Assembly (NCBI GenBank): GCA_018400915.1
Contig: JAGYLW010000002.1
Span: forward strand, 1-52,422
Source: Fidelibacterota bacterium
Lineage (GTDB): Bacteria > Fidelibacterota > Fidelibacteria > Fidelibacterales > Fidelibacteraceae
Length of the DNA stretch: 52,422 bases
Reading direction: 5' to 3'
The position numbers were made by a program, and so were the translations under genes. The notes under the pieces are model-generated. The model ran no database searches, was not told where the DNA came from, and saw only the letters and a program-made list of their open reading frames with translations. Positions 24,331 to 36,441 of the stretch are shown here, piece by piece. Within the stretch, counting starts at the first letter, position 1, and every line of letters starts with the position of its first letter.

Positions 24331-25125
24331 ATGAAGCGTCTAAAGACCGTGTTGTATTTTTTTCTGCTGGCCGGCATGGCCGCCGGGCAGGTCCCCGATA
24401 CGCTGCTGATCGCTCCCTGCGATGAGGCGACGCTCAGTCCCTTCGGCGATATCTTCACCTTGTCGCGTTCCGGCGGCATCCTGCGGCGCTATCAGAACGG
24501 CAAACTGCTGAATACTTATTCCGGAAGCCGTTCGGCGGATAAGTTCATCCTGCAGGATCCCGTCAGGCCCGTTTCCGAAGGAGCGGATAAGATCTATGTG
24601 CTCGACGCCGCCAACAACCACGTCCTTGTCTGGGACCGTTTCCTGAATCTTCATTCGCTTACACCACTGCACCGGGATATTGTTTCAGCAGCGGACTTTA
24701 CGGTCAATTCCGAAAGCGAATGGCTGATCTATGACGATTATCATCAGGTGATCCTGCAGGTCTTCCCGAATGAGCATTATTCGCACCCCTGGGGAGACCG
24801 GAACGTGTCGGGAAACGTCGGCCTTTACCGCATTGACCAGTACATACTCCTGTATCTGAAAGACCTTCAGCAGCTTCGCATTGCAAACAACAACGGTACG
24901 ACCCTCGCTGAATATCCCCTGCCCGATTCCCTTGACGTCCACCGGGTCTTTCCGCTGGGCCTGCACGTTTTCGGGCTTTCATGCGGCGGCGGAACCTATA
25001 TATGGGAACCCCGGAAAGCACGCTGCCGTTACCTCAGTGATCTTCCGGACCCCGTCTTTATGCAGCGGGAAGGAGACCGTTATTTGCTGATCAACCGCCA
25101 AGGCCTTGTGATCCGTATCCCATGA
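24331..25125 (+). CDS. Secreted propeller-like protein of unknown function
   Basis: A 264-residue protein with a cleavable signal peptide (hydrophobic 6-18, GMAAGQ cleavage region). The mature part has evenly spaced short beta-strand motifs such as GDIFTLSRSGGILRRY, DKIYVLDAANNHVLVWDR and EWLIYDDYHQVILQV, suggesting a beta-propeller of four to six short blades. I do not recognise a named family. It is the first gene of a tightly coupled operon: its TGA overlaps the start of the big barrel gene (ATGA). Periplasmic location and a role with the two barrel proteins are inferred from signal peptide and coupling. Confidence 0.65.
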   Translation: MKRLKTVLYFFLLAGMAAGQVPDTLLIAPCDEATLSPFGDIFTLSRSGGILRRYQNGKLLNTYSGSRSADKFILQDPVRPVSEGADKIYVLDAANNHVLVWDRFLNLHSLTPLHRDIVSAADFTVNSESEWLIYDDYHQVILQVFPNEHYSHPWGDRNVSGNVGLYRIDQYILLYLKDLQQLRIANNNGTTLAEYPLPDSLDVHRVFPLGLHVFGLSCGGGTYIWEPRKARCRYLSDLPDPVFMQREGDRYLLINRQGLVIRIP

Positions 25126-28100
25126 TCCCCTCAAGAAAAATATTTTCCCGCCTGAGCTTCCTCTGCGTTTTTCTGTTTCTTTATATACAGCCCTGTCCGG
25201 CTTCACAGCAGCGGGAAACGGTGATCCTTCAGCCCGGGAAAACGGTTTATCCGCTGCAGCATCCGCTGATCGTCGTGGATTCCCTTTCCGGGGCCGGCGA
25301 CCTTTCGGTGCTTTTCGATGAGCTTTACGGCAGACTCATTATCCTGCAGCCACCCGATGAACACGATACCCTTCTTGTCCATTACCGCTACAGTGATGCG
25401 GACGTCCCGCAAAAAATGGACCTGGGGATCGGAAAAATTTCCGGCTGGTTTCCGGAGGAACGTGACGCAAAGGATGCCGGTCCCGGAAAGGATCTCAGCA
25501 ACGTCAGCACCACGGGGTCCGTGTCCCGGAAACTGGAAGTGGGCTCCACGGGGCAGAGCATGCTGAGCGGCGGCCTGGACCTCAGGATCTCCGGAGAATT
25601 GTCGCCGGGCATCGGGATCAAGGGGGTCATTTCCGATAATGACGCGCCTTTTGAAGATTACGCATCCACCCAGTCGGTACAGGATGTCGATAATGTGCTG
25701 ATCAATATCTATTCCGATCAATTTGACGCGCAGATCGGTGATGTGTTCGTAAACAGCGAATGGAACCACTGGAACCGTTTCCACCGCAAACTGATCGGGG
25801 CCCGGTTTTCATACCGCGGAGACCGTTATACCGGCGCGGCATTTGCGGGAAGCGCCCGCGGGCGCTTTCAGCGTCAGGAGATCCCCGCCCGCGAGGGCGA
25901 CCAGGGGCCCTACCGCCTGCTTGCCGATAACGGCGACAATGCCATCATGATCGTGCCGGAATCCGAACAGATCTATGTTGACGGGGTTCCGCTTGACAGA
26001 TCTTTGTACACGATCTATTACCGGGACGCCGAGCTCTTCTTCTCCTCCGGGATCATGATCTCGGAAAGATCCCGTATTGTTGCGGAATTCAACTACGTAA
26101 ATGAATTCTACGCCCGTGCTTCCCTGGGCGCCGCTTCTTCCTGGCGGTTCGGAAAACATATCCGGCTCCAGGCGTCCTTCGTGCGGGAAAAGGATGACGA
26201 GAACAACCCCGTCGATGTCCATCTTTCCAATATTCCCGCTGACTCCCTTGCCGCGATCGTTTCCGGTGACGGCCATTTCACGATCTCCACGGCGATCGCC
26301 GACAGCGCGGGGGACTACGAATCCGTTGACGGAATATGGAGTTACGCCGGAGAAGGAAAAGGGACGCATACCGTTTATTTCTACCGGGAAAACCGCAACG
26401 GCGGGTATATCCGCAGCTATGACGCCGAGGGAAAGACCGTGTACCGTTATGCGCCGGAGGATCCCCTTTCCCAGTATTTTCCGCGGCGGAAGATCACACT
26501 GCCCTCCACGCAATGGATCGGTGCCATGCAGCTGGAACTGGGGCAGGAGGAGAAGGCCCACGCTGTGATCGAGGGCGCATACTCCGGATTCGACCCCAAC
26601 AATTACAATACGGAAAGCGGAACGATCACCCCCGCGTTCAAATGGGACGCGGAACTGCCCCTGGGAAAGGTCTTCCGCGTACGGACGGACGGCTGGATGA
26701 AAGATCCCCTTTTCAGCACTTTTTCCCGCCTGACGCGGCCGGATTACGAACGTTACCTCGGATTCTCCGCCTCCGATACCATCACGCAAACGGCATCGTT
26801 CACGGCGGAAACGGCGCATGAACTTTTACGCTCGACAACGTCGCTGGAATACGTAAGCGATGTCCGGAAGCAGAAGCGGACGAGGCTCCTGGCAAAGGGC
26901 ACGGGGAACATAAAGGGGATGGAATTCCGTTATGACGGGTCACGGCTCATCGCGCAGGGATCCCTGCCGTATTACAGTTTCAGCACTTCTGCAAAGGTCC
27001 CCGCCGGCGAGGCGCTCGTGTTTTCCGCGTCCTGGCTGCAGGATCATTTCGGACCGGTCTTCACCGGGGTGACCCCCTACCGCACCGAGTCTGCAGGCGC
27101 AGGCCTTTCATGGAATAAATGGGAACTGCAATATACCTACCGGAAAGATTACGACTGGGCGGAAGCGGATTCGGCGTTCTCCGCGTATTCACGGAAACAT
27201 GACCTTGCCCTGCGCTTTGATCAGTCATTCTTTAAGGAGCGCATCAACTGGGAGGCCACGGCAAGCTACCGTTTCGATCAGCGGGAAACGGTCAAAAACC
27301 ATTACCTTCTTTCCGGAAGCCGCATGGGTTTTCAGTTCAAAAAGATCGGACTGAGCGGGAATCTGAAGACAAATATCAACCGGACTTCCGAGACCCGGAA
27401 TGAAGCGGTCTTTATTTTCGTCGGGGACGGCCTCGGCAATTACCGGCTGGATGATTACGGGCAATACGTTCCCGATGACATGGGGAATTTCATCATGCGG
27501 AACGAGCTGACCAATGAGCGGCAGGATCAGTACGTGTCGAAATTCGGCAGCACCCTTAACTGGAAAAAAGACCTGAAGAAAGTGCGCGTTCAGTTTTCAC
27601 ACAGCGGCAGCAGCGATTTGCGCACTCCGGACCTGAACCTTTATGCGTCTGTTGATATCAATGATCCGGATACCAGTGTCTTTTACAACAATATGCGTTT
27701 CAAGCATGAACTGCGTGTCGGCAGTACCGACGGGAAAAGACTGCTTTCCCTCTTACTGGAGGATATCCGGAGCCAGAACTTTCAAACCGCCTATAACGAA
27801 AATATCCACACCCGGTCCGCCCGCTGGGTCAAGTACCGGGTAAGGCCCGGGGACCTTACCCTGGACTTCTATTACAAATACGGTTCCCGTCAGCAGCACC
27901 GCATGCCGCTGAACAGTTACCGTGTCCGCACTTCATCGCACGGACTCGGTACGGAAGCCGAATATCTTTTTTCCGGGAAATTCCGCATCTCCGCGAAAGG
28001 GAAATACGAACGTATAAAAACGGATTTCCGGGAAACCTTCATCGCCCACTGGATCTCCGCAGGAACGCAGTGGATATGGTACCGGGTGGCCGGCGAACGG

Positions 28101-28325
28101 CTGTTCTTCTCCGGGGGGCTGGACCGGGTTGTCAGCGATTACGCCGGAAGCCTGCCCTATGAAACGGCGAACGGACTCCCCGCCGGCTGGTCGTGGACCG
28201 GTGCGGTGCGCTATGAAAAAAGCATCAATCAGTTCCTCTCGGCCGGCACCTTCGTTCAGTTCAGGAAACGGGCGGAACAGAAAAGCATTATCACGGCAAA
28301 CCTTGAAGTGAAGGCATATTTTTAA
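25122..28325 (+). CDS. Large outer-membrane beta-barrel protein
   Basis: A 1067-residue exported protein (signal peptide about 1-26, ending CPASQQ). After a short N-terminal domain (about 27-100), residues 125-330 contain SGGLDLRISGELSPGIGIKG, DNVLINIYSDQFDAQIGDVF and ILSERSRIVAEF-like strands, resembling the periplasmic and first-barrel part of large FCB outer-membrane proteins, as I recall them. From about 440 onward there are many amphipathic strands with alternating aromatic residues, and it ends in a terminal Phe (LEVKAYF), the usual BAM signal. It is coupled at both ends: ATGA with the propeller gene, TAATG with the Omp85-like gene. Function unknown. Confidence 0.75.
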   Translation: MIPSRKIFSRLSFLCVFLFLYIQPCPASQQRETVILQPGKTVYPLQHPLIVVDSLSGAGDLSVLFDELYGRLIILQPPDEHDTLLVHYRYSDADVPQKMDLGIGKISGWFPEERDAKDAGPGKDLSNVSTTGSVSRKLEVGSTGQSMLSGGLDLRISGELSPGIGIKGVISDNDAPFEDYASTQSVQDVDNVLINIYSDQFDAQIGDVFVNSEWNHWNRFHRKLIGARFSYRGDRYTGAAFAGSARGRFQRQEIPAREGDQGPYRLLADNGDNAIMIVPESEQIYVDGVPLDRSLYTIYYRDAELFFSSGIMISERSRIVAEFNYVNEFYARASLGAASSWRFGKHIRLQASFVREKDDENNPVDVHLSNIPADSLAAIVSGDGHFTISTAIADSAGDYESVDGIWSYAGEGKGTHTVYFYRENRNGGYIRSYDAEGKTVYRYAPEDPLSQYFPRRKITLPSTQWIGAMQLELGQEEKAHAVIEGAYSGFDPNNYNTESGTITPAFKWDAELPLGKVFRVRTDGWMKDPLFSTFSRLTRPDYERYLGFSASDTITQTASFTAETAHELLRSTTSLEYVSDVRKQKRTRLLAKGTGNIKGMEFRYDGSRLIAQGSLPYYSFSTSAKVPAGEALVFSASWLQDHFGPVFTGVTPYRTESAGAGLSWNKWELQYTYRKDYDWAEADSAFSAYSRKHDLALRFDQSFFKERINWEATASYRFDQRETVKNHYLLSGSRMGFQFKKIGLSGNLKTNINRTSETRNEAVFIFVGDGLGNYRLDDYGQYVPDDMGNFIMRNELTNERQDQYVSKFGSTLNWKKDLKKVRVQFSHSGSSDLRTPDLNLYASVDINDPDTSVFYNNMRFKHELRVGSTDGKRLLSLLLEDIRSQNFQTAYNENIHTRSARWVKYRVRPGDLTLDFYYKYGSRQQHRMPLNSYRVRTSSHGLGTEAEYLFSGKFRISAKGKYERIKTDFRETFIAHWISAGTQWIWYRVAGERLFFSGGLDRVVSDYAGSLPYETANGLPAGWSWTGAVRYEKSINQFLSAGTFVQFRKRAEQKSIITANLEVKAYF

Positions 28326-29689
28326 TGGTCCCGAAAAGAAACATATCCCTCCTGTGCCTTTCCGTCCTGACGGCGGTGTCCCTGGGCGCCGGTCCCTCGT
28401 ATTTCTGTATCATTGAACAGGATACTTTCCGTGTGGACCATGACACGGAGATCAGGGAGGTTTTATCGGAGCAGCTTGTCAATTACGGGGACAAAGGATA
28501 TCCCTTTGCGGAACTTGTCCTCGATTCCTATGAAAAGACCGGTGATTCGGAGTATTTCCATTACCGCCTGTCCCGCGGAGAAAGCACAGAGATCGACACC
28601 GTGGTTTTCGGAGATTATTCTCCGCGTGAGATCTCCCTGCTTTCCCGCTACATTTCCCTGCCGGAATCCGGAAAATTTCATTATTCAAAGGTCCGGGAAA
28701 TGATAGGCGAACTCCGCAGCAACCCGCTTCTCGAGGTGGAAGAGCGGGCCGATATTTACCGGAACGGCCTTCGTCTGTACACGGAAGCCAGGCAGGATAT
28801 CCGTTTTGATGCGGTGGCGGCTTACAAAGAAGAAGCCGCAAAGAAGGGGATCATCGGAAATATTTCCTGTGAGCTGGCCAATCTCGGCGGTCTCGGCCGG
28901 CAGGCAAGCTTTTACTGGTCCCGTCCTTCGCTGGGGGTCAATGCCATCGATATTTCATACACCGAACCCTATGTGTTCAACAAACCCTTTTCCCTGCAGG
29001 GCGCCTTTACGCAGCGCTACCAGGACAGCCTGTATGTGAAGCGCGACCTTGATCTCGGCCTTGTCTATCATCTCGGCCGGCGCTCCCGTTTCCGGATCAG
29101 CTATCAGAATGAGCACATCAGCACCGCAGTTTCCGGAAGTGATTCCGGGTTTGCCGTACAGCGCCGCTCCGGTTCGGATATTGCTTTCGAATGGATGACG
29201 CCCGTCAGCGGGGTTTACGGGTATGTCAACGTTCGTTCCGGCATTACACTCGCGCTTAACAATCTTATTTCGCGTTCCCGGCTGGAGGCACAGCTTTCCG
29301 TCCGCAGATCCCGCTGGGGCGGCAATGTCCGGCTTCTGGGAGCATTGCTTGTCTCCCGCGAACCCCTTGCGCTTTACGATAAATTCAGGCTCGGCGGCGC
29401 GGATTTCCTGCGGGGCGCATATTTTGAACAGTTCGTCACGGATAAATTCGCCGGCTGGCAGGTAGAAAGCGGTTATTTCCATAACAGGACCCGCCTCTTC
29501 CTGTTTTACGACGGCGCCGTTCTGAGTGGCGGGCAGGGGCTGGTCCATCATACCGGTATCGGATTCTCCCTGCCGGCTGCGAGGAACCGCATCACGATCG
29601 CCATCGGTGTTGACCCGGCCCTGAACCTGCAGCAGGCAAAATTCCATTTCTCGTGGGAAAGGGGCAATAATACGGTCTTCACTCCCTGA
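28325..29689 (+). CDS. Minimal Omp85/TamA-like outer-membrane protein
   Basis: A 454-residue exported protein (signal peptide about 1-22). Residues 30-160 look like one or two POTRA-like domains (STEIDTVVFGDY, YSKVREMIGELRSNPLLEVEE, matching the K-x-hydrophobic LRSNPLF pattern). The rest is a 16-strand-sized barrel with the conserved Omp85 block FRLGGADFLRGAYF (about 355-368), cf. GG-x-x-LRGY. Members insert or export outer-membrane proteins or lipids. It starts within the stop of the 1067-residue barrel gene (TAATG), so the two are made together. Much shorter than BamA (about 800) and TamA (about 580). Confidence 0.75.
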   Translation: MVPKRNISLLCLSVLTAVSLGAGPSYFCIIEQDTFRVDHDTEIREVLSEQLVNYGDKGYPFAELVLDSYEKTGDSEYFHYRLSRGESTEIDTVVFGDYSPREISLLSRYISLPESGKFHYSKVREMIGELRSNPLLEVEERADIYRNGLRLYTEARQDIRFDAVAAYKEEAAKKGIIGNISCELANLGGLGRQASFYWSRPSLGVNAIDISYTEPYVFNKPFSLQGAFTQRYQDSLYVKRDLDLGLVYHLGRRSRFRISYQNEHISTAVSGSDSGFAVQRRSGSDIAFEWMTPVSGVYGYVNVRSGITLALNNLISRSRLEAQLSVRRSRWGGNVRLLGALLVSREPLALYDKFRLGGADFLRGAYFEQFVTDKFAGWQVESGYFHNRTRLFLFYDGAVLSGGQGLVHHTGIGFSLPAARNRITIAIGVDPALNLQQAKFHFSWERGNNTVFTP

Positions 29690-34809: not shown

Positions 34810-36441
34810 ATGAGTGAACTGAAAGCGCAGCTGCACAATATCTTCGGCCGGGAGCCGGAGGCAATGGAGTTAAAGGCGTTTGCCTGTTTTGACCCGGAGG
34901 CGAAAGACCGCAAAAAGCGCTTCCGGAAATACAGCGAATCACAGCCCCTGTTCCTGAATATCGATGATGAACATTATTTGTATGTCAGCCACCATACGAA
35001 CCGCCTCCGCTGCAAGCTCGACATGGCCACCCGGCACCTGGACACGGTGCTTTGCTACCCGCACGGCAGGGGGAGTATTATGCTGGGGGTCACCCGTCCG
35101 GAGAAAGAACGCCATCTGCATTCGCGGAAAACGAAATACCGCATTTTTGTGCAGAACGCAAGGCAGATCGACGAGGACCTCCTGCATGCAGCCAGCGAAT
35201 ATGCCGACCATATGGCGCTCATTCAGGATGAGAGTCCCTGGGAACGGCTTTGCAGGGTTTGCATTGATACCGGGACGGGAGGCCATATCACCGCATCCGC
35301 CCGGCGGCTTTTCGCCGATTACGAAAGCGGGATACTATATGTCGTTCCCGAACACCACAATACCGCCTTTAAAAAAATCTCCGCCGGTTTTGAACTGCAA
35401 CCGCAGTTTCTCGGGACAAGCGTTCCCTTTCCCATACTGAGCCTCGATAATGAAGACGGTCTTCTGGAGATCCCGCTCAGCACCCTGCGCAGTCTCCGGG
35501 ATTCCATGCAACGATACCGGGAAAACCGGACACCCTACCGTGAAAAGGCCGGCAAGACCCCCCTGCCCGACATCAGACCTTCCTATCGGGAGCAAACCGA
35601 TCTGCTTCTGGACTTTCTGAAGAAGGAAAACGAAAAGGATCCTTCGCGGAATTATAAGGTCCCCGGGAATGCGCCGGACCTTCAGATCGATCCTTTTCCC
35701 CTGAGGGGCCTTGCTTTCAGTGAGAACGGGATCCAGCTGCACGTCCTCTCCGCCATCGTCAATCTGTATTCGCGGGGTTTGCAGCCGCTCGCATTAAGCT
35801 ACTATATGGAAAGCACGGTCACAGCGCCGCAAAAGCTTGACCAGCTTCTGGAAGCAATGAAAAAAGGTGCGGAGCTTTTTGAGGTCCCCATCGCCAATCA
35901 CTGTATCGTACCGGGCGATGCGAACCGGCTGAAACTCTTTTTTGTTTCCAGACACCGGAAAACAGCCGTTCCGCAGGTCTTTCAGGACGCCGGGGATTTC
36001 ATCTGCCTCCTGGGCGATCCCGGCGGTACGATCAGGGGTTCCGCCTATGCCGAAGCGCTCGGATACCAAAGCGTATATTCCCCTCCGGGAGTGATGCGCG
36101 GTACGATCGCGGCAATGATCAACGTACTCGAAGAGTGCGAAAGAAAGGAAATATTATCCTCCGTCAATGCCATACAGCGGGGAGGGCTCTTTGCCGCTCT
36201 GCACCGTGCCTGCGGCCCGGACCTGGGCGCCTCCGTCTATTCGGAACGGAAAAGTCCGGAGCAGGTCTTTATCTTCGGGGAACCGCAGGCGGCGCTCCTG
36301 GTCAGTATCAAAGAGAAAAATCTTATTGATCTTGCCAGGATCACCTCCAATTATAATCTTACCTCGACAACGATCGGGCGTGTCCGGGAGGCCGGGGAGA
36401 TCAATATCAACAACGTCCTTCATTACAGGACCGGACGCTGA
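34810..36441 (+). CDS. Strongly diverged PurL-like protein (PurM fold)
   Basis: A 543-residue cytoplasmic protein. Its second half resembles the A2-B2 half of phosphoribosylformylglycinamidine synthase PurL: PLALSYYMESTVTAPQKLDQ (about 325-344) matches the PLA-x-x-x-LN-x-GNP segment; LLGDPGGTIRGSAYAEALG (about 397-415) matches the LLG...GGSEY block; IQRGGLFAALHRACG (about 454-468) matches the SEGGL helix; FGEPQAALLVSI near 484 and TIGRV near 525 match the end. The usual active-site and ATP-binding sequences of PurL were not found in the N-terminal half, which I do not recognise. It may be a catalytically altered paralogue or regulator. AAAGGTG before ATG. Confidence 0.55.
   Translation: MSELKAQLHNIFGREPEAMELKAFACFDPEAKDRKKRFRKYSESQPLFLNIDDEHYLYVSHHTNRLRCKLDMATRHLDTVLCYPHGRGSIMLGVTRPEKERHLHSRKTKYRIFVQNARQIDEDLLHAASEYADHMALIQDESPWERLCRVCIDTGTGGHITASARRLFADYESGILYVVPEHHNTAFKKISAGFELQPQFLGTSVPFPILSLDNEDGLLEIPLSTLRSLRDSMQRYRENRTPYREKAGKTPLPDIRPSYREQTDLLLDFLKKENEKDPSRNYKVPGNAPDLQIDPFPLRGLAFSENGIQLHVLSAIVNLYSRGLQPLALSYYMESTVTAPQKLDQLLEAMKKGAELFEVPIANHCIVPGDANRLKLFFVSRHRKTAVPQVFQDAGDFICLLGDPGGTIRGSAYAEALGYQSVYSPPGVMRGTIAAMINVLEECERKEILSSVNAIQRGGLFAALHRACGPDLGASVYSERKSPEQVFIFGEPQAALLVSIKEKNLIDLARITSNYNLTSTTIGRVREAGEININNVLHYRTGR

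Follow-up and report, generated by a model that had tools for sequence, protein, structure and literature searches.

What could three exported proteins do together when their genes run end to end and overlap at both junctions? The question is raised by a locus in a Fidelibacterota bacterium (assembly GCA_018400915.1, contig JAGYLW010000002.1), of which positions 1 to 52,422 of the forward strand were analysed and are referred to here as the window. The consecutive genes code for protein A (propeller), protein B (giant barrel) and protein C (small Omp85), and we refer to them together as the trio (Table 1). A sequence-only reading had described three exported reading frames with ATGA and TAATG overlaps, and these are indeed present, with an overlap of 4 nt at the A/B junction and of 1 nt at the B/C junction. 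Read by eye, each of the three N-termini has a hydrophobic stretch resembling a signal peptide and lacks a lipobox. Promoter and terminator scans across the trio region gave no signal above chance level. The genome is a 1.72 Mb assembly that is 88% complete and has one copy of B. Elsewhere in the window there is a 543-aa open reading frame between two tRNA genes (34810-36438), with no Pfam match at 1e-5.

Table 1. Coordinates of the trio genes and of predicted features within them, in window positions.
Feature	Position	Strand	Description
Protein A ORF	24331..25125	+	264 aa, exported, predicted member of an NHL-type beta-propeller family
Protein B ORF	25122..28325	+	1067 aa, putative giant outer-membrane barrel, family unnamed
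N-terminal diverged copy of SprA-type module, B residues 30-98	25209..25415	+	matches the second copy in a profile-profile comparison, P ~8e-6
SprA-type module, B residues 258-340	25893..26141	+	inserted after the first barrel-like segments; P 7.8e-9 against SprA of the phylum
Protein C ORF	28325..29689	+	454 aa, small Omp85 protein
About 1.5 predicted POTRA domains, C residues 42-165	28448..28819	+	aligned to BamA POTRA5 and the last part of POTRA4
Omp85 loop-6 signature FRLGGADFLRGAY, C residues 354-366	29384..29422	+	R363 and G364 identical in all 32 members
D396 of C, predicted partner aspartate of the Omp85 RG motif	29510..29512	+	identical in all 32 members; equivalent to TamA D521 in the alignment

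The window copy of protein A matches no family on its own, and its assignment is made at the level of the family, in which 14 of 35 members match Pfam NHL (best 7e-17) and whose profile matches NHL propeller structures in the PDB down to 2e-41. As judged by these matches, A belongs to an NHL-type beta-propeller family. Protein B has no match in Pfam, NCBIfam or PDB families. The sequence-only reading had recognised a propeller, a giant barrel and an Omp85-type protein, and these broad identities are right; its further statement that neither of the first two proteins belongs to a nameable family stands for B but not for A. It had also considered that the 1067-residue protein might turn out to be a known transporter, and no known transporter was matched.

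By homology of its barrel, the RG motif with its aspartate, and the presence of at least one predicted POTRA domain, protein C clearly belongs to the Omp85 superfamily. The window copy alone is below threshold for Pfam Omp85 (17.7 of 24 bits, E 0.0026), and 19 of 32 members of the C family match it (PF01103; best 3.9e-26). The C profile matches a POTRA-domain protein (8.6e-20), BamA (5.5e-19) and TamA (4.3e-8) in the PDB, and R363 aligns with R661 of Escherichia coli BamA and R477 of TamA. The POTRA alignment has a P value of 8e-7 with the whole family and a weaker one (6e-4) with the window lineage alone. The very short POTRA-like part noted in the sequence-only reading is borne out: in the window lineage the barrel begins after approximately 170 residues, and in others after up to 269. 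C is predicted to carry about 1.5-2 POTRAs. In a maximum-likelihood tree C forms one clade (99/97) apart from the ~800-aa BamA and ~610-aa TamA-like proteins of the phylum, although the branches of this Omp85 tree are long and the exact placement of C in it is unsure.

Comparison with the known Omp85 systems shows several likenesses, none of which extends to identity. In the BAM complex an Omp85 protein with POTRAs (BamA) works with a periplasmic propeller (BamB), an architecture to which C and A are similar. However, BamA has five POTRAs and is encoded by a separate gene here, and the short region before the barrel of C and its separate clade argue against C being BamA; likewise A differs from BamB in being NHL-type, in lacking a lipobox and in having no match to PQQ/BamB families. 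TamA of the TAM system (TamA-TamB) is also an Omp85 superfamily barrel with few POTRAs, but TamB adjoins the ~610-aa TamA-like proteins and not C, and with the separate clade this argues against C being TamA. Two-partner secretion (TpsB-TpsA) similarly has a short-POTRA Omp85 encoded beside a very large exported partner; B differs from TpsA in its membrane-barrel pattern, and neither a TPS nor a haemagglutination-type domain was found in it; ShlB/FhaC matches in the C family are rare and weak (3/32), and we do not regard C as a TpsB. The Bacteroidota BAM complex, from the same superphylum, has a second outer-membrane barrel beside its Omp85 (BamA with BamG/BamH; PMC12611786), but BamG, a 14-strand FadL-type barrel, is much smaller than B, and its Omp85 partner is BamA, which C is not.

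Protein B is 1025-1207 aa long across the phylum, and its C-terminal residue is phenylalanine in 33 of 39 members and leucine in the other six. A C-terminal phenylalanine is what one expects of a barrel that relies on an Omp85 machine for its insertion. Segments of alternating hydrophobicity were counted on alignments with a home-made scan, which gives 35-44 for B as against ~14-24 in shuffled B. Calibrated on C, whose barrel should comprise 16 strands, the scan gives 14-15, and the B-to-C ratio is still 2.8-3.1 when only four sequences are used. This crude scan supports B being a very large barrel, although an exact strand count, to set against the approximately 36 strands of SprA, is beyond it. 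AlphaFold2 models from shallow alignments have a pLDDT of 27 for B (three sequences) and 31 for C (two sequences).

A link to SprA, the translocon of type 9 secretion (SprA/Sov), comes from the B profile itself, which also matched proteins of ~2000-2200 aa in the phylum. Four copies of these match Pfam SprA_N at 1e-35 to 1e-43 (down to 6.5e-43), and one copy compared with the PDB matches Flavobacterium johnsoniae SprA (6H3I/6H3J) at 5e-76, identifying them as SprA. What B and SprA have in common is a module of ~80 residues (profile-profile P 7.8e-9; 6e-11 by sequence search). A profile of the module alone, run against 19 genomes, matched only B and SprA-sized proteins at E < 0.05, with one further match at 0.068. 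B is nonetheless not SprA: SprA is ~2000-2400 aa long and has the SprA_N domain (PF14349), which was not found in B among 39 members at E 0.1, and it has no private adjacent Omp85, unlike B. Moreover, SprA is encoded separately in 144 of 149 genomes regardless of the trio, and B is thus an additional giant barrel and not the type 9 pore; for the same reason we reject the trio as a type 9 accessory. A literature search found no description of SprA relatives of B's kind.

The distribution of the trio was surveyed in 149 genomes of the Neomarinimicrobiota, the phylum of the window's own genome, and all distribution counts refer to these. A single B sequence used as query finds relatives in 116 genomes, and the profile built from 39 members has matches in 125, of which six are matches to SprA only; after curation, B is present in 119 genomes, C in 116, and both in 115. 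The sequence-only reading had asked whether the genes co-occur elsewhere or are scattered and never adjacent, and they prove to be neighbours almost throughout: C lies directly downstream of B on the same strand in 111 of the 115 genomes with both, and the exceptions are mostly on split or short contigs. A is immediately upstream of B in 50 of 61 loci (37/41 in a first sample and 13/20 in a second), and the remaining 11 comprise three contig ends, seven loci of family f5, and one in genome G092, discussed below. Across the phylum the genes are repeatedly found in this order with almost no space between them, and chance is therefore excluded.

The losses follow the same pattern. A and C are missing as well from 20 genomes without B, and a search for A in 30 genomes gave matches in 10 of 10 that contain B and in none of 20 that lack it. 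Matches of the C profile in B-less genomes are weak (E > 1e-20) and, where detailed, are mostly to Omp85 proteins of BamA or TamA length. One genome (G096, 63% complete) is an exception, with C at a contig edge and B not found. The B-less lineages are families f7, f15, f16 and f26, together with single or incomplete genomes. A is the only member of the trio seen to be lost by itself: at the seven f5 loci (L128-L133 and L074) B and C are adjacent and A is missing, and in one f5 genome (G003) there is only a weak A match elsewhere in the genome, probably a paralogue. B and C are thus the core of the unit, from which A is sometimes lost. At the f5 loci the match of the B profile begins late, and the N-terminal module seems to be missing or very diverged; a link between its loss and that of A was considered and rejected, as the match also begins late in f11 and f12, yet A is missing only in f5. 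The B profile has no match in viral contigs, nor the B protein in plasmid records. Similar unnamed proteins are presumably present in other FCB genomes. We found no publication on the trio, and its joint inheritance and loss point to an undescribed outer-membrane machine.

The genomes of family f7 (G006, G028, G102 and others), from which the whole trio is missing, are streamlined (0.7-1.0 Mb). They retain SprA, an Omp85 protein of BamA length and LpxC, and TamB is weak or not detected in those tested.

The genes around the trio vary. In many families its neighbours are lgt on one side and rnr (RNase R) on the other, with DUF4837, an Rce1-like protease and sugar enzymes nearby, and in the window family it is flanked by a nucleoside phosphorylase and MATE gene on one side and by SSB and UvrC on the other. 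The trio is intact in either setting, which argues that selection acts on the trio as a unit and not on the neighbourhood. The DUF4837 protein (L050:13807-14886 and homologues), encoded 3' of rnr, is a frequent neighbour (20 loci, all outside the window family), and a literature search found no publication on it.

Genome G092 provides a natural separation of the three genes (L125:220-9151; L071:6732-12611). B has remained behind lgt, with one C25 peptidase gene after it. A and C have moved as a pair to another contig, where they are preceded by a second C25 peptidase gene (with a FlgD_ig domain) and by the gene for an unnamed 363-aa exported-looking protein. All three genes are kept despite the split. 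By analogy, the pairing of A and C without B fits what may be expected of an Omp85-propeller unit comparable to BamA-BamB.

Our preferred explanation, offered tentatively and with rather less than even confidence, is that B is a SprA-like pore which C assembles or gates with the help of A. The three proteins would constitute one outer-membrane unit in which B is a barrel of SprA size forming a large pore, with the SprA-type module after its first strands probably acting as a plug or cap. C would be an Omp85 foldase of the active type reserved for B, using its short POTRA arm to take up B in the periplasm and its gate as a template for inserting or closing B. A would be a periplasmic propeller binding C, B or both during assembly of B, with a role like that of BamB for BamA. 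The data establish the gene order, the joint inheritance and loss, the Omp85 identity of C with its signature residues, the propeller family of A, the module in common with SprA and a barrel-like pattern of about 35-44 segments in B; the action of C on B, the binding of A to C and the role of B as a pore for large cargo such as proteins are what we infer. The Omp85 proteins that have been studied mostly handle polypeptides, with PlpD the exception (PMC4104836, PMC11116518), and a polypeptide is therefore the most plausible substrate of C. B, which is translationally coupled to C and co-inherited with it, is then the natural candidate. The strongest point against a dedicated foldase is that SprA, a giant barrel too, is present in lineages without C, so that size by itself is no reason for a barrel to need a private Omp85. 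A is not essential, since B and C are kept in family f5, where A is missing.

The main rival is a permanent two-barrel export machine, in which B would be a SprA-like translocon for a set of proteins and C and A, instead of serving assembly, would be working subunits that dock, gate or insert cargo; we consider this somewhat unlikely, though the closest competitor to C as a foldase of B. The module that B has in common with SprA alone among the 19 genomes, the SprA-like scale of its barrel pattern and the strict co-inheritance of B and C are all consistent with it, and paired barrels have precedents in SprA-PorV (PMC10994853) and BamA-BamG (PMC12611786). The A-C pair of G092 adjoins a gene for a C25 peptidase, a family used in type 9 secretion, but this association is seen in that single genome, where B is moreover encoded apart from its supposed partners. 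No cargo or sorting signal has been identified, and SprA itself occurs independently of the trio.

Transport of a lipid, LPS or another glycan, with B as the pore through which an envelope lipid or polymer leaves and the propeller as a periplasmic adaptor, is improbable. A large pore would suit such a role, and Lgt and glycosyltransferases are encoded near the trio in other families, but the window lineage has no such neighbours, TamB is paired with another Omp85, and the Omp85 proteins that have been studied act mostly on polypeptides. Of 27 genomes tested, 26 have LpxC, whether or not they have the trio (the exception being the window's own incomplete genome), which argues against the trio being essential for LPS. 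B has no match to the LptD family (PF04453), and in G001 and G060 there are separate loci with LptD-family matches above cut-off in addition to B; we therefore reject B as LptD. The presence of LpxC irrespective of the trio and of LptD alongside B makes an LPS exit pore unlikely.

An ordinary operon, in which three envelope proteins are transcribed together yet work independently, is the least probable explanation. Gene order can persist by descent, and there is a strong correlation among the distances for B, C and RNase R (14 loci), but A, B and C are missing together in several families, stay together when the flanks change and are all kept after the split in G092, and the distance correlations are still positive after allowing for RNase R (0.65-0.76 in a rough estimate from the 14 loci, which is only compatible with coevolution).

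The trio might even represent an undescribed outer-membrane secretion system, with a second giant pore of the SprA type, a private Omp85 and propeller, and a set of cargo separate from that of type 9 secretion; we regard this as speculative and rather unlikely. Omp85 proteins are usually seen either as insertion machines of general use (BAM) or as exporters of soluble partner proteins (TPS). Strict inheritance of a private Omp85 together with a single giant barrel would be a pairing of a new kind, one that makes testable the question of whether very large barrels need an insertase of their own. The module common to B and SprA also offers a way into the question of where SprA, the pore of type 9 secretion, came from.
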